This document shows positions 6,798 through 16,505 of a DNA stretch of 64,000 nucleotides, piece after piece. The position numbers and the translations under genes were made by a program. Positions within the stretch are counted from its first letter, which is position 1. Each line of letters starts with the position of its first letter. The notes below the pieces were generated by a model. That model was not told the DNA's origin, did not search any database, and was given only the letters and a program-made list of their open reading frames with translations. Origin of the DNA: Psychrobacter sp. PG1. Its GTDB lineage: Bacteria > Pseudomonadota > Gammaproteobacteria > Pseudomonadales > Moraxellaceae. Where the stretch lies: positions 1 to 64,000 of the forward strand of contig NZ_JABUZG010000061.1 of the NCBI RefSeq assembly GCF_014897815.1, written 5' to 3'.

Positions 6798-7697
6798 TCA
6801 CAAAAGACGCGTCATTTGACTTAAGAATTCGGCGACTTGTTTGTGTAAGTTTTCTCGATAAGCCCAATGATGCTTGACCTCGTAACTGGCCTCATTGGGC
6901 AGTAGTATTTTCATCAGCCCCATTTCTTCATAACGCTTGGCTAAATCATTGGGCAAGTAACCAACATGATGACCCGCCAGAATGAGCTGCGCAGTTGCCT
7001 CCATGTGATAAGTGGTGGCACTCAAAGTTTTTGGGCGGACATGATTGATACTCAAATCGGTAATATAGCCTCGTTTTATCCATGGATAGTTTTGTTCCAA
7101 ATCCTCAAATGTTAACCCTTCTGATTCATAAAACAATCGATGCTCGCGCCCACAGCACACCACTTGTTTTTCAATAAACGCTGGTTGAAAAGTGAGTAGT
7201 GGTGGAAAACTGCCAAAATATCCCACACCAATATCACTCTCGTTGCTTAGCAGCTTCTCTAGCATGCTTTCAGGGCTTTGCACATCGATAGAAAAGTGAA
7301 TAAGGGGATTGTCACGATAGCTAGCAGCCAAGCATTGGCGCAAGGCGTCATAAAAAAACGTCGGCATCTGGTCAATGAGACACAGTCGGATATGACCGCC
7401 ACGCACCGAATCCAATTGGCGAATATAGTGCAGTTGATGCTGAAAACTGGCAACCGCTTCGGTAAAACTCAAGCAAGCTTCATATACTGCTGCACCATCT
7501 TCTGTGAGCTTAAAACCCGCGCGTCCGCGATGACAAAGCGTCATGCCTAAGCGATCTTCTAAATGGGTCAAATGACCACTAATGACAGAGGTCGTCACAT
7601 TTAAGCGAGACTGTGCGGCTGTCACGCCCTGACATTCTACGATTGCCATAAAGCTACGCAAGGTTTTGATGTCTATTTTTATCAATTCATCTAGCAT
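6798..7697 (-). CDS. LysR-family transcriptional regulator
   Basis: A 299-residue regulator. The N-terminal winged HTH occupies about residues 8-66 (IKTLRSFMAIVECQGVTAAQ, then SVISGHLTHLEDRLGMTLCHR). A type-2 periplasmic-binding-like effector domain spans about 95-295. It is transcribed divergently from the guanidino-acid catabolic cluster at 7931, with a 233-base shared promoter region, so it is the likely activator of that cluster. The inducer would be a pathway substrate or intermediate, but this is inference. Confidence 0.9.
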   Translation of the reverse strand: MLDELIKIDIKTLRSFMAIVECQGVTAAQSRLNVTTSVISGHLTHLEDRLGMTLCHRGRAGFKLTEDGAAVYEACLSFTEAVASFQHQLHYIRQLDSVRGGHIRLCLIDQMPTFFYDALRQCLAASYRDNPLIHFSIDVQSPESMLEKLLSNESDIGVGYFGSFPPLLTFQPAFIEKQVVCCGREHRLFYESEGLTFEDLEQNYPWIKRGYITDLSINHVRPKTLSATTYHMEATAQLILAGHHVGYLPNDLAKRYEEMGLMKILLPNEASYEVKHHWAYRENLHKQVAEFLSQMTRLL

Positions 7698-7822
7698 CGG
7701 TCATTATTCCTCAGTACCTCTGATGTCCATCAAAATGCATCTTCTATTTATCACTTTTCTAACATCAAATTTATATCAAACTTCTGATAATAACGGTTAA
7801 ATCTAAATTACTACGAAAAATC

Positions 7823-7836
7823 AGAAGTTTACTTCT
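7823..7836. promoter_or_regulatory. Candidate LysR operator AGAAGTTTACTTCT
   Basis: A perfect inverted repeat AGAAGT-TT-ACTTCT lies in the LysR/ureohydrolase intergenic region. The half-site ACTTC recurs nearby in AAACTTCTGATAA (about 7779-7791) and TGACTTCAAAT (about 7852-7862). Repeated half-sites in a divergent promoter are typical of LysR regulation, although the palindrome is not a strict T-N11-A box. Confidence 0.5.
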
Positions 7837-7930
7837 AAATTTTACCATGGTCTGACTTCAAATATTTAGGTATTGTCAAAGCATATAAAAAATTGCCTAT
7901 TTTAAACAAACTGAAACAAGGATGTGATTT

Positions 7931-8899
7931 ATGAAATTCAATCAACCATTAAGCGGCAACGATATGCCAAGATTTGGCGGCTTTGCTTCTATGATGCGCT
8001 TGCCGACTCAGGCCGATGCAGAAGGGTTAGATGTGGCGTTTGTGGGTGTGCCTTTAGATATCGGTGCGTCAAACCGTAGTGGTGCGAGATTGGGCCCACG
8101 ACAAATTCGTGATGAATCACGCATGATTCGTCCTTATAATGTCGCCACTCGTGCAGCGCCTTTTGAGTCTTTACAAGTTGCTGATATCGGCGACGTGCCT
8201 ATCAATACCTTTAATCTCTTAAAAAGTATTGATATCATCGAAAAATTCTATACCGATAAAATCGTGAATCATGGTGCTATTCCATTGACTTTGGGCGGCG
8301 ATCATACCATTGCCTTGCCTATCTTGCGTGCGCTTGCCAAAAAACACGGCCCTGTCGGCATGGTGCATATCGATGCGCATGCAGATATCAACGATGAGAT
8401 GTTTGGCGAAAAAATCGCTCATGGTACACCGTTCCGCCGTGCTGTCGAAGAGAACTTAATCGATGGCAACCGCGTGGTACAGATTGGCTTACGTGGTACA
8501 GGCTATAGCGCCGAAGAGTTTGATTGGTCAACCCAACAAGGCTTTCGTGTTGTCCCTGCCGAGGAATGCTGGTACAAGTCTCTGACGCCATTGATGGCAG
8601 AAGTACGCGAAAAGCTCGGTGATGGCCCCGTCTATTTAAGTTTCGATATCGATGGTATTGATCCTGCGTTTGCACCGGGTACGGGCACTGCTGAAATCGG
8701 TGGCTTGACCTCAACGCAAGCGATAGAAATCATTCGCGGTATGCGCGGACTTGATGTGGTGGGTGGCGATTTAGTAGAAGTGTCTCCTCCTTATGACCCC
8801 TTTGGTAACACCTCAGTATTGGCGGCAAACTTACTGTTTGAGATGTTATGTATCTTACCGGGTGTGCGCTATGACGATAAGGTAAAGGCGGTGTATTAA
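7931..8899 (+). CDS. gbuA: Ureohydrolase, agmatinase/4-guanidinobutyrase type
   Basis: A 322-residue manganese ureohydrolase that releases urea from a guanidino compound. Metal ligands are visible in GGDHTIALP (about 121-129), HIDAHADIND (about 146-155) and SFDIDGIDPAFAPGTGT (about 237-253). Full length for the family. The ATG follows AAGGATGTGATTT. The next gene is an AruI-type 2-ketoarginine decarboxylase and an aldehyde dehydrogenase lies downstream, so 4-guanidinobutyrate (yielding GABA and urea) is a better guess than agmatine. Sequence alone does not separate the two; the symbol rests on context. Confidence 0.82.
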   Translation: MKFNQPLSGNDMPRFGGFASMMRLPTQADAEGLDVAFVGVPLDIGASNRSGARLGPRQIRDESRMIRPYNVATRAAPFESLQVADIGDVPINTFNLLKSIDIIEKFYTDKIVNHGAIPLTLGGDHTIALPILRALAKKHGPVGMVHIDAHADINDEMFGEKIAHGTPFRRAVEENLIDGNRVVQIGLRGTGYSAEEFDWSTQQGFRVVPAEECWYKSLTPLMAEVREKLGDGPVYLSFDIDGIDPAFAPGTGTAEIGGLTSTQAIEIIRGMRGLDVVGGDLVEVSPPYDPFGNTSVLAANLLFEMLCILPGVRYDDKVKAVY

Positions 8900-9023
8900 G
8901 AATGATTTGTAATCGCAAACTGCTTTTATCAAGCTGCTTTTTATAATGGATTAAAGGGCAGCTTGGGTTTTGACACTGAACAACTTATTTAAACGCGATT
9001 GAACTTTTTAGGATGATTAACTC

Positions 9024-10757
9024 ATGACGCAAACGCTTCAAACATCTTCTTCAGCGCCCGCCACGCCGTCTCTGACATGTGGTGAGCTGCTCGTACAGTG
9101 GCTAGAGTATTATGGGGTAGAGACCGTATTTGGTATTCCGGGTGTGCATACGGTCGAGCTATATCGTGGTCTGCCAAACACCAACATTCGCCACGTGACA
9201 CCGCGTCATGAACAAGGTGCGGGGTTTATGGCTGATGGCTATTACCGCGCGTCTGCCAAAGTTGGCGTGTGTTTTATCATCACAGGTCCGGGTATGACGA
9301 ATATCATGACGGCCATGGCGCAGGCGTTGGCTGACTCCATCCCGATGTTAGTGATTTCTAGTGTTAATAAAGTGGCAGATACGGGCAGCGGTGAAGGGCA
9401 CTTGCATGAATTGCACGATCAGCAAGGTATGGTCAGCAAGGTAGCGCTCACGAGCAAAACTATTTGGCAGCCTGAATCGTTACCCAAGGTCATCGCTGAA
9501 GCGTTTGCATTATTTAATGGCGCACGTCCAGGGCCAGTGCATATCCAGCTGCCCATTGATGTGATTACCGCCGATGCCAGTCATGTCGCAAAGCCCTCTG
9601 ATTTAACTCCTTATTTAAATAACTTTGCAAAAAATTCGACTGATGCACATGGTTTAACGTCACCTCAAGTAATGAGACCGCTGCCCAATCCTGCGCAATT
9701 AGATTTGATCGTTGAATCTCTAAAAGCGGCAAAAAATCCAGTGATACTTTATGGTGGTGGCTGCGTCGATGTCGATCATGACGCGCAGACTCTAGCAGAG
9801 ATTATCGATGCACCGACGTTTTTGACCATCAATGCCAAAGGTTTGCTGCCACCTAGCCACCCATTAAGTTTGGGTAGCAATCAGTCATTAGAGGCAGGTC
9901 GCGCCGTTATTGCTGAGGCTGATTGGGTGTTGGCGATTGGTACTGAGCTGGGTGAAACTGATTATGATGTGTTCTTTAACGGCCAGTTCAAAATCAATGG
10001 CACGCTGATTCGTATCGACTGCGATGCCCAGCAATTACAGCGTCCTTTTAGAGCCGATATCGCGGTATTGTCCGATGCGCAAATGGCGGTAAGTGGTCTA
10101 TGTAGTCGTTTAAAGGGTCAGGTGTTAAATCATCAAGCGGTATCACGAGTAAATGAGGCAAAACAAGCACTATTAGCAGGAATGACACCAGACTTTGCGG
10201 GTCAAAATGCGCTACTTCAATTGATTCGAGATGAAGTGAAAGACGTCATCTTCGTTGGTGATTCAACGCAGCCTGTCTATAGCGGCAATCTTGGTTTTGA
10301 GGCATTGGCGACGCGTCGATGGTTTAATTCATCGACTGGATTTGGCACGTTAGGTTATGGTTTGCCTGCTGCCATTGGCGCCATGATTGGTTCCAACAGT
10401 CCAGTGGTCAGCTTGATTGGCGACGGCGGTATTCAGTTTACGATTGCAGAACTTATCTGCGCCGCCGAGCTTGAGCTGCCATTGATTGTGCTGCTGTGGA
10501 ACAATCAAGGCTATGGCGAGATTCGTCGTTATATGGAAGAGGGCGGATTGCCACTAATCGGGGTTAATATTAAGACGCCAAACTTTGAGCCGCTGGCAGC
10601 AGGATTTGGTGCAGGTTATCGCAGAATTACCGATAAGCAGCAATTACTAGACGCCTTGCAAAAGGATATCAACGGCAAGCAGCCTTTCATTTATGAAGTT
10701 GATGAAGCCGATGACTTTTTGATTGAAATGGGTAAAACGTTCATCTGCTTTAGCTAA
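9024..10757 (+). CDS. aruI: 5-guanidino-2-oxopentanoate decarboxylase (AruI type)
   Basis: A 577-residue enzyme of the TPP-dependent acetolactate-synthase fold. The N-terminal signature VFGIPGVHTVELYRGL followed by RHEQGAGFMADGYYR (cofactor Glu63) and FIITGPGMTNIMTAM is characteristic of the AruI group. The TPP-binding motif GDGG to NN is at about 466-493. In Pseudomonas, AruI decarboxylates 2-ketoarginine to 4-guanidinobutyraldehyde in the arginine transaminase pathway. The ureohydrolase is 124 bases upstream and the Dld-like gene 50 bases downstream, all co-directional. Glyoxylate carboligase-like activity is the main alternative, but the neighbours argue against it. Confidence 0.88.
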   Translation: MTQTLQTSSSAPATPSLTCGELLVQWLEYYGVETVFGIPGVHTVELYRGLPNTNIRHVTPRHEQGAGFMADGYYRASAKVGVCFIITGPGMTNIMTAMAQALADSIPMLVISSVNKVADTGSGEGHLHELHDQQGMVSKVALTSKTIWQPESLPKVIAEAFALFNGARPGPVHIQLPIDVITADASHVAKPSDLTPYLNNFAKNSTDAHGLTSPQVMRPLPNPAQLDLIVESLKAAKNPVILYGGGCVDVDHDAQTLAEIIDAPTFLTINAKGLLPPSHPLSLGSNQSLEAGRAVIAEADWVLAIGTELGETDYDVFFNGQFKINGTLIRIDCDAQQLQRPFRADIAVLSDAQMAVSGLCSRLKGQVLNHQAVSRVNEAKQALLAGMTPDFAGQNALLQLIRDEVKDVIFVGDSTQPVYSGNLGFEALATRRWFNSSTGFGTLGYGLPAAIGAMIGSNSPVVSLIGDGGIQFTIAELICAAELELPLIVLLWNNQGYGEIRRYMEEGGLPLIGVNIKTPNFEPLAAGFGAGYRRITDKQQLLDALQKDINGKQPFIYEVDEADDFLIEMGKTFICFS

Positions 10758-10807
10758 TGTTAATACGTCAAATATAATAAAGGCTGGTCGCTCAAGGAAG
10801 AACGTCT

Positions 10808-12619
10808 ATGATGCCACATGCTAACCGCTCGTCTGGTCGCTTGAGCACCTCGCTGGCAAGCTTATTAACGGATTTATCCGCCGTTGTTGGCGCGACCAAT
10901 GTATTGACCAAGTCAAGCCAGCAGCAGTCGTATACACAAGGGGCTATTGCTTCTATCACGGATGCTGTCGCGGCAGTTGTGATACCAGACTCTCTTGTGG
11001 CACTATGGCGCGTCATTAATCTCTGTGCGGCGGTTGATGTGATTATTATTGCACAGGCTGCTAACACAGGGTTGACCGGAGGCTCGACACCGTACGGAGA
11101 GTACGATCGAGCAGTCGTTGTGATTTCTATGCAACGATTGGGCGGTGTTCATCTGCTCAATGACGCAGCAGAGCTAGTTGCTTTGCCAGCGGCTAGCCTC
11201 CAGCAGTTGGAGTCTCAGCTTGCGCCATTAGGGCGTGAGCCGCATTCAGTGCTGGGCTCTAGTTGTGTTGGTGCTTCAGTGATTGGCGGTATTTGCAACA
11301 GCTCTGGCGGTATGTTGGTGCAGCGTGGTCCGGCGTATACCGAGATGTCGCTATTTGCCAAACGTAATGCCATGGGTGAGTTTGAATTAATCAATCACTT
11401 GGGCATTGATTTAGGTGCGGATCCAGAAGAGATGCTTAGAAACTTACAAACTGGCACATTTAATAAAAATCCAAATAGTATCAGCAGTAAATCCTGTACA
11501 AACCACCATTATCAACATAAAGTTCGCGATTGCGAAGCAGACACGCCTGCCAGATTCAATAATGATCCTAACGGATTATATGAAGCTTCGGGTTCAGCAG
11601 GCAAAGTCATCGTCTTTGCGGTTCGAGTCGCGACATTTGCCAAACCGACACAAGAGCAAACATTCTATATCTCGACCAATGACGCCGATACTTTGACCAC
11701 ACTCAGGCAACAGTGGTTAAAAAGCGAGCTAAACCTGCCTATTTTGGCAGAATATATGCACAAAAATTACAACGATATTACCATGCGCTATGGCCGTGAT
11801 ACTTGTTTGAGTATGCGAAAATTGCCTGCTGGTAAGATAGGTGGATTGTATCGGCTACAAGCTAAAATTGGCTATTATTTAAATAAATGGCGATTGCCTC
11901 AGACTTTACCAGATCGGCTGCTACAAATGACTGGTATTTTCATGCCGCCGTCATTACCCAATTCTTTGGCTGAGCAGGCGTGTTCCTATCGTTATCATTT
12001 AATCATTAAAGTCGCGGATGGCAATAATACGTACGATGATAATAGCGATGATAACGGCAGTCATGGTCATATTGCCGCCGCTCAAGCATTTCTACAGTCC
12101 CATATGCAGCAACATAAAGGCGTCGTACATCTCTGTACAGCAGCAGAATCCCAAGCATTATTGGTGTTTCGCAGTGCAGCAACCGCTGCCATGTTTCGTT
12201 ATCACAATCTTAACCACACAACGTTTGGCGAGCTATTATCTACCGACATTGCCTTACCAAGGAATGCCGTAGATTGGGATGAAGTGCTACCTATTAACTT
12301 ACAAAAGCAAGTCAGTAAAACCTTTTATTTGGGACATTTTTTCTGCCATGTCATGCATCAAGATTATCTGTTATACCCTGAAGTGGATGCAAAAAAATTC
12401 AAGGATGAGCTATTGGCGTTTTATGATCGACGTCGTATAGAGTACCCTGCTGAACACAACGTGGGTCATGTCTATACCGCAAAGCCTGCACTACATACTT
12501 TTTATAAAAAATTAGATCCGACCAATTCACTGAACCCAGGCATTGGTCAGACAGCAAAATGGAAAAATTGGCGATCGTCGCCCATCAAGGAGGAATTAAA
12601 TGACGAATTATCTCGATAA
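10808..12619 (+). CDS. dld: Quinone-dependent D-lactate dehydrogenase (Dld) family flavoprotein
   Basis: A 603-residue membrane-associated FAD enzyme. The N-terminal FAD_binding_4 half has AANTGLTGGSTP and GGICNSSGGMLVQRGPAYTE. The C-terminal membrane-binding half ends with the family signature AEHNVGHVYTAKPALHTF and DPTNSLNPGIGQTAKWKNW, closely like E. coli Dld. Family members oxidise D-lactate (or another D-2-hydroxy acid) and pass electrons to quinone. Its place between aruI and yjiH is unusual. It may make pyruvate, or convert 2-hydroxy-5-guanidinopentanoate to 2-ketoarginine for AruI. The stop overlaps the yjiH start by 20 nt, implying coupled translation. Confidence 0.88.
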   Translation: MMPHANRSSGRLSTSLASLLTDLSAVVGATNVLTKSSQQQSYTQGAIASITDAVAAVVIPDSLVALWRVINLCAAVDVIIIAQAANTGLTGGSTPYGEYDRAVVVISMQRLGGVHLLNDAAELVALPAASLQQLESQLAPLGREPHSVLGSSCVGASVIGGICNSSGGMLVQRGPAYTEMSLFAKRNAMGEFELINHLGIDLGADPEEMLRNLQTGTFNKNPNSISSKSCTNHHYQHKVRDCEADTPARFNNDPNGLYEASGSAGKVIVFAVRVATFAKPTQEQTFYISTNDADTLTTLRQQWLKSELNLPILAEYMHKNYNDITMRYGRDTCLSMRKLPAGKIGGLYRLQAKIGYYLNKWRLPQTLPDRLLQMTGIFMPPSLPNSLAEQACSYRYHLIIKVADGNNTYDDNSDDNGSHGHIAAAQAFLQSHMQQHKGVVHLCTAAESQALLVFRSAATAAMFRYHNLNHTTFGELLSTDIALPRNAVDWDEVLPINLQKQVSKTFYLGHFFCHVMHQDYLLYPEVDAKKFKDELLAFYDRRRIEYPAEHNVGHVYTAKPALHTFYKKLDPTNSLNPGIGQTAKWKNWRSSPIKEELNDELSR

Positions 12620-14006
12620 GTCGCAGCAACCGATATTAGGAAATGATGTTGTCGATTCAGAAACGCCGCAAGGAGAGCAGTGGCGTGCGTCAATGTGGAA
12701 GTTTTTATTGTTTTCAGCATTGGGCATTGCACTATTTATTATTCCGTTTCAATGGGACGGAAAGGTTACGATTTTATTGGGTGTGTTAACGGACGCTTTG
12801 CAAGCTTTGTTGGGCGGTTCTGTCGTTTATGTGGCAATGGCAATCGTGACGACATCCTTTCTTGGGGCATTGGCTGTGAAGGTGTTAAAACCCAACCTGC
12901 ATGAAGACTCTATGGTCAAAAAACTCTTCGATGTTGATTGGTTTTGGCTCACTGCCCGATTGTTAGGGATGGTGTTTGTCTGGATGATTTATCTGCAAGT
13001 CGGCCCTGAGTTTATTATTAATCGTAATACCGGCGGCGTCATTTTCGAAGATTTGATTCCAATTTTGATTCCTTTGTTTTTCTTCGCCATTTTATCGTTA
13101 CCGTTTTTGACAGATTTTGGTTTGATGGAGTTTTTGGGCACACTGGCGAGCAAAATATTTGTCAAGCTGTTTAAGTTGCCAGGACGCTCAGCGGTAGATG
13201 CCATGTCCTCTTGGTTTGGCGCAGCTTCTATCGGTTTACTCGTGACCATGCAGGAGTATGATAAAAGCTACTATAGCCAGCGTGAAGCGGCGATTATCGC
13301 GACGACTTTTTCGGTGACTTCGATCGCTTTTACTTATGTCGTCGCCAAAACCATCGGCGTGGACGATAACTTTGTTTATTTTTATCTGACCATTGCTTTA
13401 ACAGGCTTTATCGCCGCGATTATTATGCCGCGTATACCGCCACTCTCCTTAAAGCCTGACACCTATCATTCTGGCAAAAGCATGCTTGATGAAGGGATTC
13501 CTGCTCAGTACACGACCTACCAATGGGCGGTCAATCGTGCTGTGACGCGCGCGCACTCAATGCCAAGTCTGGGTCAAGTGTTCAAACGTAGTGTAAAGAA
13601 TTTATTCGATATCTATTTTGGGCTAATCCCCGTGATTTTCGCAATTGGTACGATTGGTCTGGGCTTAGCCGAATATACGCCTGTGTTTAAATGGTTGTCT
13701 ACACCGTTGGTACCGCTGCTTGATTTGTTACAGATTCCAGAGGCAGCAGAGGCGGCTCCAGCGATGATTATGGGCTTTGCGGATATGTATTTGCCAGCCT
13801 TGGTCGGCAAAAGTATTGAGAGTGAGATGACAAGATTCATCGTTGGTGCATGTTCTATTACTCAGATTATTTATATGTCTGAAGTAGGCGCGCTGATTTT
13901 GAAATCAAACATCAAGCTTAATGTGTTAGAGCTGTTTATGATTTTTATTCTTCGTACGCTGATCAGTTTGGTGGTGATTACCTCAGTGGCGCATCTACTG
14001 TATTAG
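12600..14006 (+). CDS. yjiH: YjiH-family Gate-domain membrane protein (putative transporter)
   Basis: A 468-residue protein with about ten hydrophobic segments, of the YjiH/nucleoside-recognition (Gate domain) family. Conserved stretches include LPGRSAVDAMSSWFGAASIG and GFADMYLPALVGKSI. No substrate is firmly established for the family. Its position inside the guanidino-acid cluster suggests uptake or efflux of a pathway compound. It has a near-perfect ribosome site (AAGGAGGAATTAA before ATG 12600) although it starts within the dld coding region. A hairpin without a T run follows at 14057-14091. Confidence 0.85.
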   Translation: MTNYLDKSQQPILGNDVVDSETPQGEQWRASMWKFLLFSALGIALFIIPFQWDGKVTILLGVLTDALQALLGGSVVYVAMAIVTTSFLGALAVKVLKPNLHEDSMVKKLFDVDWFWLTARLLGMVFVWMIYLQVGPEFIINRNTGGVIFEDLIPILIPLFFFAILSLPFLTDFGLMEFLGTLASKIFVKLFKLPGRSAVDAMSSWFGAASIGLLVTMQEYDKSYYSQREAAIIATTFSVTSIAFTYVVAKTIGVDDNFVYFYLTIALTGFIAAIIMPRIPPLSLKPDTYHSGKSMLDEGIPAQYTTYQWAVNRAVTRAHSMPSLGQVFKRSVKNLFDIYFGLIPVIFAIGTIGLGLAEYTPVFKWLSTPLVPLLDLLQIPEAAEAAPAMIMGFADMYLPALVGKSIESEMTRFIVGACSITQIIYMSEVGALILKSNIKLNVLELFMIFILRTLISLVVITSVAHLLY

Positions 14007-14056
14007 CCATGTAGCCAATATCAACCCAGCCTCTAGCATCACGATAATGTGCCAAA

Positions 14057-14091
14057 TAATCGGTTTATTCTTTAGTTAGATAAACCGATTA
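14057..14091. other. Hairpin between yjiH and the aldehyde dehydrogenase
   Basis: A perfect 12-bp inverted repeat, TAATCGGTTTAT with ATAAACCGATTA, has an 11-base loop. No T run follows, so it may be an RNA-stability element or a weak attenuator rather than a terminator. Confidence 0.45.
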
Positions 14092-14184
14092 CTTAGCGAA
14101 TGATTGATAGAGACACTTATAAATGAAATTAAAGACAATAGGTATAAAACAATTATATCAAACCATATAAGGTGATTGACCATC

Positions 14185-15708
14185 ATGGAAATGACGAATG
14201 CTAACAGTTTAACGAGAGAAAGCGCCATCCAAACGGTTCACGATGAAGTGATGTTAAATGCAGCTTATATAGATGGCAAATGGATGACTATTGAAGCGCC
14301 TGCTACCGATACTGCTGACGCTGATAGCTATGATTCGAATTATGATTTATATGATTCAAATTCGGGAACAATCATCGCTACCACTCGATTGTGTACCAAG
14401 GTACAGGTAGAAATGGCAGTCAATGCGGCTTCTGCGGCGTATCCATCTTGGTCGCGAACCGCCGTAAGCACGCGTGCATCGTATCTCAATGCCATTGCCG
14501 AGAAGATGGAGGAGCAGTTTGACAAATTGGTGGGATTGTCTGTGTTAAATAATGGTAAGCCCATTGAAGAGGCAAAAATAGACGTGAGTGATGCCATTGC
14601 CTGCTATCGCTATTATGCCAATCTCATCACAGAACAAGCGACGTGGTCGGAGGTATCCACCAGCGAGTCAGGCATACGCTTGCTAAAAACGTATGCACCT
14701 GTTGGTATTTGCGCCCTTATTGTCCCGTGGAATTTTCCAATGGTCACTACTGCTTGGAAGTTAGCCCCTGCATTGGCTGCAGGCTGTACGGTGCTATTAA
14801 AGCCCTCCGAGGTGACATTATTGCCAGAGTTGATGCTGGGCAATATGTTGTCTGCTATTAAACTACCGAAAGGAGTCGTTAATATTTTGCCGGGTGCAGC
14901 TGAAGTGGGCGCTGCCATGACCTGCCATCCATTAATCGACAAAATTTCTTTTACTGGTAGCAACGCCGTTGGTGAAAAGGTAATGAGCCAAGCGGCAAAA
15001 GGTATTAAGGATATCAGTCTAGAGCTGGGCGGTAAGTCAGCCATCGTCGTATGTGCAGATGCTGATATCGACCACGCTTGTGATTTGATTATCGGTGGTA
15101 TATTTACCAATGCCGGTCAGATCTGTTCAGCCACCTCAAGACTGCTTGTTCATGAAAGCATTGCTCAGTCGTTGTTCGATACATTAAAAGTTAATACAGA
15201 AAGTTTGCAAATTGGTGATGGCTTTGACACTGACACGCAAATGGGTCCACTGGTTAGTGAGCAGCAACTAAATCAAGTAAAAAAATATTTCGACCTTGCT
15301 GCTGCCGAAAACCTGACTTGTCTCACAGGTGGTGAGATCTTAAATCGGCAAGGGTATTTTGCGATGCCGACGATTTATACCAATGTTCTAGTGACCAGTC
15401 AGTTATGGACAGAAGAGGTTTTTGGGCCGATACTAGTGAGTCAAACGTTTACCGACCATGCCGAGGCGATTGCTTTAGCCAATGATAGCCAGTTTGCTTT
15501 GGCCGCGAGCATTGTCAGCGCTGATGAAACGGCGGCCGTAGAGATGGCGCTACAGATTCAAGCGGGTCATATCTGGATCAATGAACAGCAAATTGTACTG
15601 CCAGAATCAGGGTGGGGCGGATTTAAGCAAAGCGGTATCGGTCGTGAGCTGGGCGTAGACGGCTTGTCTGCGTATCAAAAAAGCAAGCACGTGCTGTTGA
15701 GTCATTAA
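14185..15708 (+). CDS. NAD(P)-dependent aldehyde dehydrogenase, probable 4-guanidinobutyraldehyde dehydrogenase
   Basis: A full-length ALDH of 507 residues from ATG 14185, chosen because AAGGTGA sits nine bases before it; TTG at 14176 is too close to that site. Catalytic Glu280 is in LELGGKSA and Cys314 in NAGQICSATSR, with the usual 34-residue spacing. WNFPMVTTAWKLAPALAAG is the cofactor region. It is the last gene of the cluster after a 178-base gap containing a hairpin. By context it should oxidise the aldehyde made by AruI to 4-guanidinobutyrate, the step done by KauB in Pseudomonas. Betaine aldehyde-type specificity cannot be excluded. Confidence 0.85.
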   Translation: MEMTNANSLTRESAIQTVHDEVMLNAAYIDGKWMTIEAPATDTADADSYDSNYDLYDSNSGTIIATTRLCTKVQVEMAVNAASAAYPSWSRTAVSTRASYLNAIAEKMEEQFDKLVGLSVLNNGKPIEEAKIDVSDAIACYRYYANLITEQATWSEVSTSESGIRLLKTYAPVGICALIVPWNFPMVTTAWKLAPALAAGCTVLLKPSEVTLLPELMLGNMLSAIKLPKGVVNILPGAAEVGAAMTCHPLIDKISFTGSNAVGEKVMSQAAKGIKDISLELGGKSAIVVCADADIDHACDLIIGGIFTNAGQICSATSRLLVHESIAQSLFDTLKVNTESLQIGDGFDTDTQMGPLVSEQQLNQVKKYFDLAAAENLTCLTGGEILNRQGYFAMPTIYTNVLVTSQLWTEEVFGPILVSQTFTDHAEAIALANDSQFALAASIVSADETAAVEMALQIQAGHIWINEQQIVLPESGWGGFKQSGIGRELGVDGLSAYQKSKHVLLSH

Positions 15709-15723
15709 ACGTTGGGCGCTTTC

Positions 15724-15779
15724 ATATCTTATTTAGCCATTAATATTGCTACCAATGGCTAAATAAGATATTTGCTTTG
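15724..15779 (+). terminator. Terminator after the aldehyde dehydrogenase
   Basis: A perfect 18-bp inverted repeat (15724-15741 with 15754-15771) with a 12-base loop is followed by TTGCTTTGT. It closes the catabolic cluster. Confidence 0.75.
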
Positions 15780-15821
15780 TAAATTAACTTTACTGGACTA
15801 AGAATGCCATTCGATATAAAA

Positions 15822-15837
15822 TTGAGCAATCATTCAA
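15822..15837. promoter_or_regulatory. TetR operator TTGAGCAATCATTCAA upstream of tetR
   Basis: A 16-bp imperfect palindrome, 57 bases before the tetR start. It matches four further copies at 18014, 18086, 18109 and 26574. This supports autoregulation by the TetR protein. Confidence 0.7.
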
Positions 15838-15893
15838 ATTTTATCGCTGTGCTTATTTTTATATGAGATTACAGCTTTTGAGATGGAAAAACT

Positions 15894-16505
15894 ATGTCAC
15901 GTACCGCACTTTATAACCGTCAGGATGCCTTAGAACGCGCGTTACAGCTTTTTTGGCAAAAAGGCTTTCATGCTACTTCGTTAAAAGACATAGAAGAGGC
16001 GCTCGATATGCGTCCAGGAAGCATTTATGCTGCGTTTGGCAGTAAAGATGGATTATTTCAAGAAGCGTTAGACTACTATGCTCGCCTAGGTTTGAGTGAG
16101 CTTGAGCGGGTAATGGGCGCTTATCAATCGCCGCTGTTGGGGTTAGCCGCTTTCGTGCGTCAGCTGGGCGGTATTCGTGATAAAGGGCTGCCGAGTCAGG
16201 CTTGCATGTTGGTCAAAAGCTTACTGGAGCTTGGTGCTCGTGAGCAGACAGCGCTACAAAAAGTTGAAATGCTGCTGGCAGGTATGGAGCTGCGTTTTAT
16301 AAATTACTTTACCGAAGCACAGCGGCTGGGTGAGCTTGATAGTAAGTTGGATCCGACTAGGTTAGGTCGTCGCTTGCAGGCTGAAGTGATGGGATTGCGT
16401 GCTTTTGCGCAGCGTGATGTCGAGAGTGCAGCGGTGCAAGCGTTGGCTGAAGATATGGCACTCTCTATAGAAGGGCTGCGTATTGATAAGCCTGTTGGCG
16501 TGTAG
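15894..16505 (+). CDS. TetR/AcrR-family transcriptional regulator
   Basis: A 203-residue protein. The N-terminal HTH is about residues 8-55: ALERALQLFWQKGFHATSLK, then LDMRPGSIYAAFGSKDGLFQ. The rest is an all-helical ligand domain with a Cys in GLPSQACMLVKSLLEL. It is separated from the AhpD- and FrnE-like genes by a convergent arrangement. The same palindrome precedes tetR and those genes, so it probably represses itself and them. The ligand is unknown; the target functions hint at an oxidative or electrophile signal. Confidence 0.9.
   Translation: MSRTALYNRQDALERALQLFWQKGFHATSLKDIEEALDMRPGSIYAAFGSKDGLFQEALDYYARLGLSELERVMGAYQSPLLGLAAFVRQLGGIRDKGLPSQACMLVKSLLELGAREQTALQKVEMLLAGMELRFINYFTEAQRLGELDSKLDPTRLGRRLQAEVMGLRAFAQRDVESAAVQALAEDMALSIEGLRIDKPVGV

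Follow-up and report, generated by a model that had tools for sequence, protein, structure and literature searches.

A D-lactate dehydrogenase relative beside an AruI-type decarboxylase in Psychrobacter and its putative role as a hydroxyacid entry into the 2-ketoarginine route

What does a relative of the respiratory D-lactate dehydrogenase do next to an AruI-type decarboxylase? This question is raised by a stretch of 64,000 nucleotides (hereafter, the window) at the beginning of contig NZ_JABUZG010000061.1 of Psychrobacter sp. PG1, the genome of which is a 3.49 Mb draft. In the window, the gene of a Dld-family flavoprotein, called DldC here, stands in a row with genes for a ureohydrolase, an AruI-type decarboxylase dependent on thiamine diphosphate (ThDP), a YjiH-family membrane protein and an aldehyde dehydrogenase, behind a divergent LysR-type gene. 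An earlier note on this DNA had described this gene set in this order, and all its open reading frames were recovered. In the arginine transaminase pathway of Pseudomonas aeruginosa, AruH makes 2-ketoarginine and KauB oxidizes the aldehyde. The cluster resembles this AruH/AruI/KauB/GbuA pathway in having an AruI-type decarboxylase and a guanidinobutyrase-like ureohydrolase, with an aldehyde dehydrogenase that would act between them. It differs by the insertion of the Dld-family enzyme and of YjiH and by the lack of an aminotransferase; as the earlier note had said, neither the list of open reading frames nor NCBIfam and Pfam scoring of the cluster genes reveals one.

The answer proposed here is that a core 2-ketoarginine route is complemented by DldC as an accessory entry for a D-2-hydroxy acid, D-argininate. 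As a whole, we consider this scheme to be evenly balanced between right and wrong. In the core, AruI would convert 2-ketoarginine to 4-guanidinobutanal, the aldehyde dehydrogenase would oxidize the latter to 4-guanidinobutyrate, and the guanidinobutyrase would release γ-aminobutyrate (GABA) and urea. DldC would be a paralogue of lactate dehydrogenase turned to a larger D-2-hydroxy acid. Concerning its substrate, its stereochemistry and its acceptor, we infer that it most likely oxidizes D-2-hydroxy-5-guanidinopentanoate (D-argininate) to 2-ketoarginine and delivers the electrons to the quinone pool. YjiH would be the likely importer. DldC would then provide an accessory entry, or salvage 2-ketoarginine that has been accidentally reduced, and would not be the sole source of this keto acid. 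The computations behind this proposal bear on gene content, protein families, linkage to aruI, distinctness from the lactate Dld, catalytic residues, pocket switches and repeated losses.

Linkage of DldC to aruI and its distinctness from the lactate Dld

Among 348 Moraxellaceae genomes, DldC was found in 50, all of them Psychrobacter, at E values of 7.1e-177 or better; the next match was 46% identical, with an E value of 6.8e-158. At E 1e-110 or better, AruI has a match in 69 of the 348, again all Psychrobacter, and these include all 50 genomes with DldC. The neighbourhoods of the 69 aruI-positive loci were read. In every one of the 50 DldC genomes dld is located between aruI and yjiH, an order that was re-checked in 49. 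The aruI-dld-yjiH order, the conservation of which the earlier note wished to see checked across Moraxellaceae, is constant in the Psychrobacter loci having DldC and is confined to one genus of 16. Of 153 Dld relatives detected when 84,980 species representatives were scanned, 80 were kept. Thirty-two of these are of the DldC type (at least 67% identity); all belong to Psychrobacter and all 32 adjoin aruI and yjiH. The other 48 (at most 48% identity) have an AruI or YjiH relative in none of the neighbourhoods available. The best named match, a Dld with 100% identity, comes from Psychrobacter sp. WY6; the remaining named records of the DldC type are also from Psychrobacter. The linkage of DldC to aruI is beyond chance.

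A search of the genome for a second dld was successful. This other Dld, which scores 912 bits on NF008387, is encoded in a lactate-type operon, between a relative of the LctP-family lactate permeases (TIGR00795, 339 bits, just below the cut-off of 341) and LldD (NF033901, 783 bits for a cut-off of 550). Identity to E. coli Dld is 57% for this lactate-operon Dld and 43% for DldC, and the two proteins of the genome share 43% identity. The tree and the residue counts given below use DldC from 30 of the 50 genomes, each with an open frame of at least 500 amino acids, the window included. In a maximum-likelihood tree of 48 Dlds, the 30 DldC sequences are split off by one branch (support 100/100, length 2.68). 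Among the matches listed, with at most three candidates scored per genome, 33 of the 50 DldC genomes have another Dld at E 1e-100 or better. Since the second Dld of the window's genome sits in a lactate operon, DldC is probably not the ordinary D-lactate dehydrogenase of the cell, and a dedicated D-lactate role by default is unlikely. The ratio of nonsynonymous to synonymous rates (dN/dS) of dld is 0.07-0.17 in the 6 of 8 comparisons with other DldC genomes that have unsaturated dS, which indicates that the gene is under purifying selection.

DldC shares with E. coli Dld (1F0X) its family and fold, as well as the metal and base residues. The equivalents of subsite A, which in related enzymes provides the metal ligands, the base and the carboxylate-binding arginine, were located by spacing. 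These residues (R434, H489, H496, E528 and H529 in E. coli numbering) show no variation in 30/30 DldC and in 16/16 lactate-type Dlds. The lactate-type label was given from context and clade, 11 of the 15 rows besides E. coli having an LldD or LctP relative nearby. Unlike the E. coli enzyme, DldC lies outside a lactate operon and in a separate clade, and forty positions are conserved within the 30 DldC and, differently, within the 16 lactate-type sequences. Two of the forty correspond to predicted pocket sites, assigned by spacing at +4 from the arginine and -2 from the first histidine. They are Ala438 and Tyr487 in all 16 lactate-type Dlds and Thr and Leu in all 30 DldC (T459 and L508 in window-protein numbering). 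At equivalent spacing, the passages used from three structural reports place residues lining the side-chain pocket: Trp351 of mouse LDHD, Tyr327 and Ile369 of PdG-D-LDH, and Thr390 and Tyr432 of human D2HGDH (PMC10589216, PMC12724367, PMC7801405). A predicted model of DldC, of moderate confidence (predicted local distance difference test score, pLDDT, 68; predicted template modelling score, pTM, 0.67), is closest in structure to 1F0X (E 9.7e-44), with LDHD and further VAO-type folds next. The model puts R455 and T459 within a single helix and L508, H510 and H517 in a pair of adjacent strands, an arrangement that would support the spacing-based mapping. This pattern of conserved and switched residues would fit an enzyme acting on another D-2-hydroxy acid. 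Hence, the part of the earlier interpretation in which DldC looks specialized away from lactate is supported by the second Dld of the genome, the separate clade and the residue switches; its other part, a stand-in for the transaminase, is not supported, in view of the loci described below.

Losses of dld and other sources of 2-ketoarginine

No dld is present in 19 of the 69 aruI loci. Seventeen of these retain the guanidinobutyrase gene and yjiH; of the remaining two, L176 is a short contig and L173 is without yjiH. In the window, the stop of dld and the start of yjiH overlap by 20 nt, as the earlier note had seen for the putative transporter gene, and the Shine-Dalgarno sequence of yjiH sits inside dld. 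The same type of overlap occurs in 49 of 49 scored dld loci, with a length of 20 nt in 34; L192 was excluded from this count for its broken genes. In that locus (genome G688) the ureohydrolase gene, aruI, dld and yjiH are all partial or broken; the draft is listed at 5% contamination, and an assembly or sequencing error is possible. In all 17 dld-minus loci with yjiH, the region just upstream of yjiH matches the 3′ end of dld. The match holds when the Shine-Dalgarno region is left aside, and in each locus none of 500 base shuffles was equally good. The stretch encodes an NPGIGxTxKxKNW-like C-terminal end common to E. coli Dld, so that it is a remnant of dld, a scar.

A core-protein tree was obtained by a quick method and built without L176, from which one gene only is available. 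To explain where dld occurs, six changes are required on this tree, and well-supported branches force five of them. The basal branches mostly have dld. Together with the scars, this indicates an early presence of dld and several later deletions, which left guanidinobutyrase, AruI and YjiH in place. In L069 and L189, compared with the window, the dS of dld (0.28 and 0.41) is lower than that of aruI (0.73 and 0.89) and of yjiH (0.84 and 1.37). Recombination has likely moved dld within the genus, and regain of dld by this means may therefore have occurred. DldC is an accessory, dispensable entry. The loci without Dld and their scars rule out a fixed substitute for the transaminase.

Because the core stayed where dld was lost, it must have another source of 2-ketoarginine. 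Concerning aruH, which the earlier note proposed to look for, a search of the genome gave no close match, the best one being 30% identical to the single aruI-linked aminotransferase used as query. A hidden AruH was not retained on this basis, which is no proof of absence, and a functional stand-in is possible. An aspartate-transaminase-type gene is indeed found elsewhere in the genome (NF004769, 531 bits, below the cut-off of 617). It may be considered as a candidate source since AspC of S. meliloti, encoded beside an AruI homologue, is described in the passages used from PMC7268258 as an arginine:pyruvate transaminase. A second candidate would be a DadA-like flavoprotein acting with a Rid protein. 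Genes for a DadA-like FAD oxidoreductase and a Rid protein are paired near the LysR gene of the cluster in 7 of the 69 loci (L166, L172, L179, L186, L187, L191 and L195), 4 with dld and 3 without, and the pair also occurs elsewhere in the window's genome (L108); PF01042 identifies the Rid protein of L108 and L195. This pair is a candidate D-arginine branch. It recalls the D-arginine route of DauA with Rid proteins, in which a flavoprotein reportedly yields 2-ketoarginine (PMC5619798); this flavoprotein belongs to a family unrelated to Dld and acts on amino acids.

In the wider order and class, an aminotransferase gene lies within 1.5 kb of aruI in L087, L246, L254, L255 and L257. The aruI cluster L086, also outside Psychrobacter, has a DadA-type dehydrogenase (NF001933, 447 bits for a cut-off of 383), and in that of L085, where YjiH is joined by an MBL-fold protein and an NCS1 permease, no enzyme making 2-ketoarginine is visible. 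Like the Psychrobacter loci without Dld, L085 shows that aruI clusters need not carry an entry enzyme. No Dld relative was found beside aruI outside Psychrobacter in 15 regions and in the 1.5 kb flanks of 24 loci.

Two side observations concern the surroundings of aruI. An optional module, located between the ureohydrolase gene and aruI (L069:4495-7390 and equivalents), encodes an NCS1-type permease, a carbon-nitrogen hydrolase of the nitrilase superfamily and an MBL-fold protein. It occurs in 21 of the 69 loci (17/50 with dld, 4/19 without) and could serve as a further entry, with an amide or a cyclic guanidino compound as possible source. Its genes were rejected as partners of Dld, module and Dld being found in all four combinations. 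L180 (genome G030) holds another copy of aruI, which has about 80% identity to that of the window and stands beside a gene of the zinc-binding-dehydrogenase family and an aldehyde dehydrogenase gene.

The substrate of DldC

Mandelate-type routes use a 2-hydroxyacid dehydrogenase, a ThDP-dependent keto-acid decarboxylase and an aldehyde dehydrogenase, in this order of chemistry. At the family level, the window cluster holds the same three enzymes; unlike these routes, its decarboxylase is of the AruI type and not a benzoylformate decarboxylase, and it ends with guanidinobutyrase. A locus of the same genus (L207:6876-11416) encodes a benzoylformate decarboxylase (NF005485, 735 bits for a cut-off of 493) followed by a Dld relative and then by an LldD relative. 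It is apparently a mandelate-type operon with a Dld-family D-mandelate dehydrogenase. This Dld is one of two, of another type than DldC, that have Gly and Cys at the two predicted pocket positions. A second copy of this Dld type is encoded at L206; no match to an AruI-like ThDP gene was obtained there. With DldC and L207, this one genus offers two cases of a Dld-family enzyme with changed pocket residues next to a ThDP-dependent decarboxylase of keto acids. The simplest reading would be that both Dlds make the keto acid which the neighbouring decarboxylase consumes. As the keto acid used by AruI is most likely 2-ketoarginine, D-argininate would be the substrate of DldC.

In its most specific form, this proposal would make DldC a dedicated quinone-linked D-argininate dehydrogenase, evolved from a D-lactate dehydrogenase and opening an additional entry into the 2-ketoarginine-guanidinobutyrate-GABA route by the logic of mandelate catabolism, with YjiH importing the guanidino hydroxy acid. 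This form is tentative and, in our view, somewhat doubtful. A number of observations weigh against the proposal as a whole, among them the repeated losses of dld from loci which keep the core. The switched Thr and Leu carry no negative charge that could pair with a guanidinium group, and the one acid close to them, D498, is shared by the lactate Dlds. The metal-site region of DldC could not be aligned by sequence profile with LDHD, D2HGDH and PdG-D-LDH, so that the pocket mapping rests on motif spacing only. Mouse LDHD is described in the passages used from PMC10589216 as rejecting hydrophilic side chains. IlvB1 of S. meliloti, an AruI homologue, prefers 5-amino-2-oxopentanoate sevenfold, according to the part of PMC7268258 consulted; hence the keto acid shared by AruI and DldC may not be 2-ketoarginine. 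In the titles and listings of open-licence literature searched, no bacterial argininate dehydrogenase was found, argininic acid appearing there in metabolomics, synthesis and clinical work; in the available portion of one review, it occurs only in tables of uremic solutes (PMC8745165). Seventeen of the 50 DldC genomes have no second Dld, among the matches listed, so that DldC may have a lactate role in these. Finally, the 48 Dlds of other genera have an LldD relative in 1 case and an LctP relative in none, within the available flanking DNA, so that context alone does not make them lactate enzymes.

Considering these points, several other roles may be envisaged for DldC. It might oxidize D-lactate to supply pyruvate, which an arginine:pyruvate aminotransferase encoded elsewhere would use as amino acceptor, thereby feeding AruI. 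The score of DldC above the NF008387 cut-off, the aspartate-transaminase-type gene and the AspC precedent (as given in the excerpted text of PMC7268258) are in line with this idea, as are the 17 genomes just mentioned. It is nevertheless improbable when confronted with the separate Dld encoded with permease and LldD in the window's genome, the second Dld match listed for 33 of the 50 DldC genomes, and the forty switched positions, two of them at predicted pocket sites. Moreover, as pyruvate is a central metabolite, a dedicated maker would be hard to justify. DldC might also act on another D-2-hydroxy acid whose keto acid is accepted by AruI, such as 5-amino-2-hydroxypentanoate or a long-chain compound, with the guanidinobutyrase serving another input. 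The IlvB1 preference reported in the same excerpts of PMC7268258 would agree with this, and so would the range of hydrophobic D-2-hydroxy acids that mouse LDHD accepts in the passages of PMC10589216 and the Tyr to Leu switch, which renders the predicted pocket more apolar. We regard this possibility as unlikely, though slightly less so than the D-lactate one: with AruI far over the NF005712 cut-off and guanidinobutyrase in 68 of the 69 loci, a guanidino substrate is simpler.

It may also be imagined that DldC is an enzyme of metabolite repair only, reclaiming D-argininate produced by the action of reductases on 2-ketoarginine, argininate never being a growth substrate. The accessory nature of DldC, whose gene underwent at least five changes on the tree of a core that persists, would agree with this idea, and the literature listings and passages searched pointed to no source from which bacteria would obtain argininic acid in the environment. 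The overlap of dld with the membrane-protein gene in every scored locus suggests, on the contrary, an imported substrate; yet yjiH is kept in loci without dld. Pure repair is as improbable in our eyes as the D-lactate role. The scheme retained is that of a core 2-ketoarginine route with DldC as an accessory entry, most likely for D-argininate.

The cluster genes, their control and the meaning of DldC

The features of the cluster are collected in the table.

Features of the aruI-dld cluster and of its upstream region (positions in the window)
Feature	Position	Strand	Basis
LysR-type regulator, divergent, probable cluster regulator	6798..7697	-	PF00126 + PF03466
Operator-like element	7778..7835	.	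Inverted repeat AAACTTCTGAT/ATCAGAAGTTT, 31 nt apart
Guanidinobutyrase (GbuA-type ureohydrolase)	7931..8899	+	PF00491
AruI-type ThDP decarboxylase (5-guanidino-2-oxopentanoate decarboxylase)	9024..10757	+	NF005712 812 bits, cut-off 500
DldC, Dld-family FAD dehydrogenase, predicted D-2-hydroxyacid (argininate-type) dehydrogenase	10808..12619	+	NF008387 692 bits (cut-off 391), PF09330
3′ end of dld carrying the yjiH Shine-Dalgarno sequence; persists as a scar where dld is deleted	12528..12619	+	Overlap and scar analysis
Gate/YjiH-family membrane protein	12600..14006	+	PF07670
Aldehyde dehydrogenase, probable 4-guanidinobutanal dehydrogenase	14176..15708	+	PF00171

The closest solved relative of the ureohydrolase is guanidinobutyrase 3NIO (522 bits), followed by guanidinopropionase 3NIP (328 bits); the protein also passes the NCBIfam agmatinase model TIGR01230 (203 bits for a cut-off of 174). 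By these sequence comparisons it is a predicted guanidinobutyrase, as expected for a member of the arginine transaminase pathway. The single aruI locus in which its gene is missed is a short contig. For AruI, NF005712 is by far the best family, the next model scoring 335 bits, and the benzoylformate decarboxylase model NF005485 is absent from the top 25 of 51 models. None of the best 25 NCBIfam models is over its cut-off for the aldehyde dehydrogenase, the top ones being betaine aldehyde and aminobutyraldehyde models; its gene is covered over more than 30% in 57 of the 69 aruI loci, some of the others being cut by contig ends. YjiH has no solved relative at E values up to 1. Its gene was found in 67 of the 69 loci, and gene context points to a probable importer, the cargo being a hydroxy acid or a guanidino acid. 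Genes for GabT and GabD accompany aruI in four Psychrobacter loci (L182, L183 and L186 with Dld, L173 without). Only the L183 pair of GABA transaminase and succinate semialdehyde dehydrogenase was scored, and it is over the cut-offs of TIGR00700 and TIGR01780. The presence of these genes fits GABA as the product of the pathway.

The LysR gene is at least 95% covered in 66 of the 69 aruI loci, and its product reaches the cut-off of none of the best 25 NCBIfam models. Between this gene and that of the ureohydrolase, the second arm of the inverted repeat is overlapped by AAGTTTACTTC at 7825-7835. In counts made without a control set, AAGTTTACTTC on either strand occurs in 60 of 66 lysR-ureohydrolase intergenic regions, as does some inverted repeat with arms of at least 8. 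Inverted repeat and AAGTTTACTTC are likely an operator. Scans of positions 7600-16000 gave no clear signal, with 23 promoter-like elements for 15.9 expected and 7 terminator-like elements for 8.5 expected, and none of these signals falls in the aruI-dld gap. The genes of the cluster would be co-regulated.

In conclusion, the 2-ketoarginine route of Psychrobacter, with what would be a lineage-specific hydroxyacid entry derived from Dld, may be viewed as a variant of a known pathway. For genome annotation, it should be kept in mind that DldC scores well above the cut-off of the D-lactate dehydrogenase equivalog, so that DldC and its 49 orthologues are likely to receive the name D-lactate dehydrogenase. 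If the proposed role is true, it would connect argininic acid, so far mainly a metabolomics marker in the literature searched, with a gene and a biochemical route, and it would clearly exemplify how a respiratory D-lactate dehydrogenase can be recruited to another substrate.

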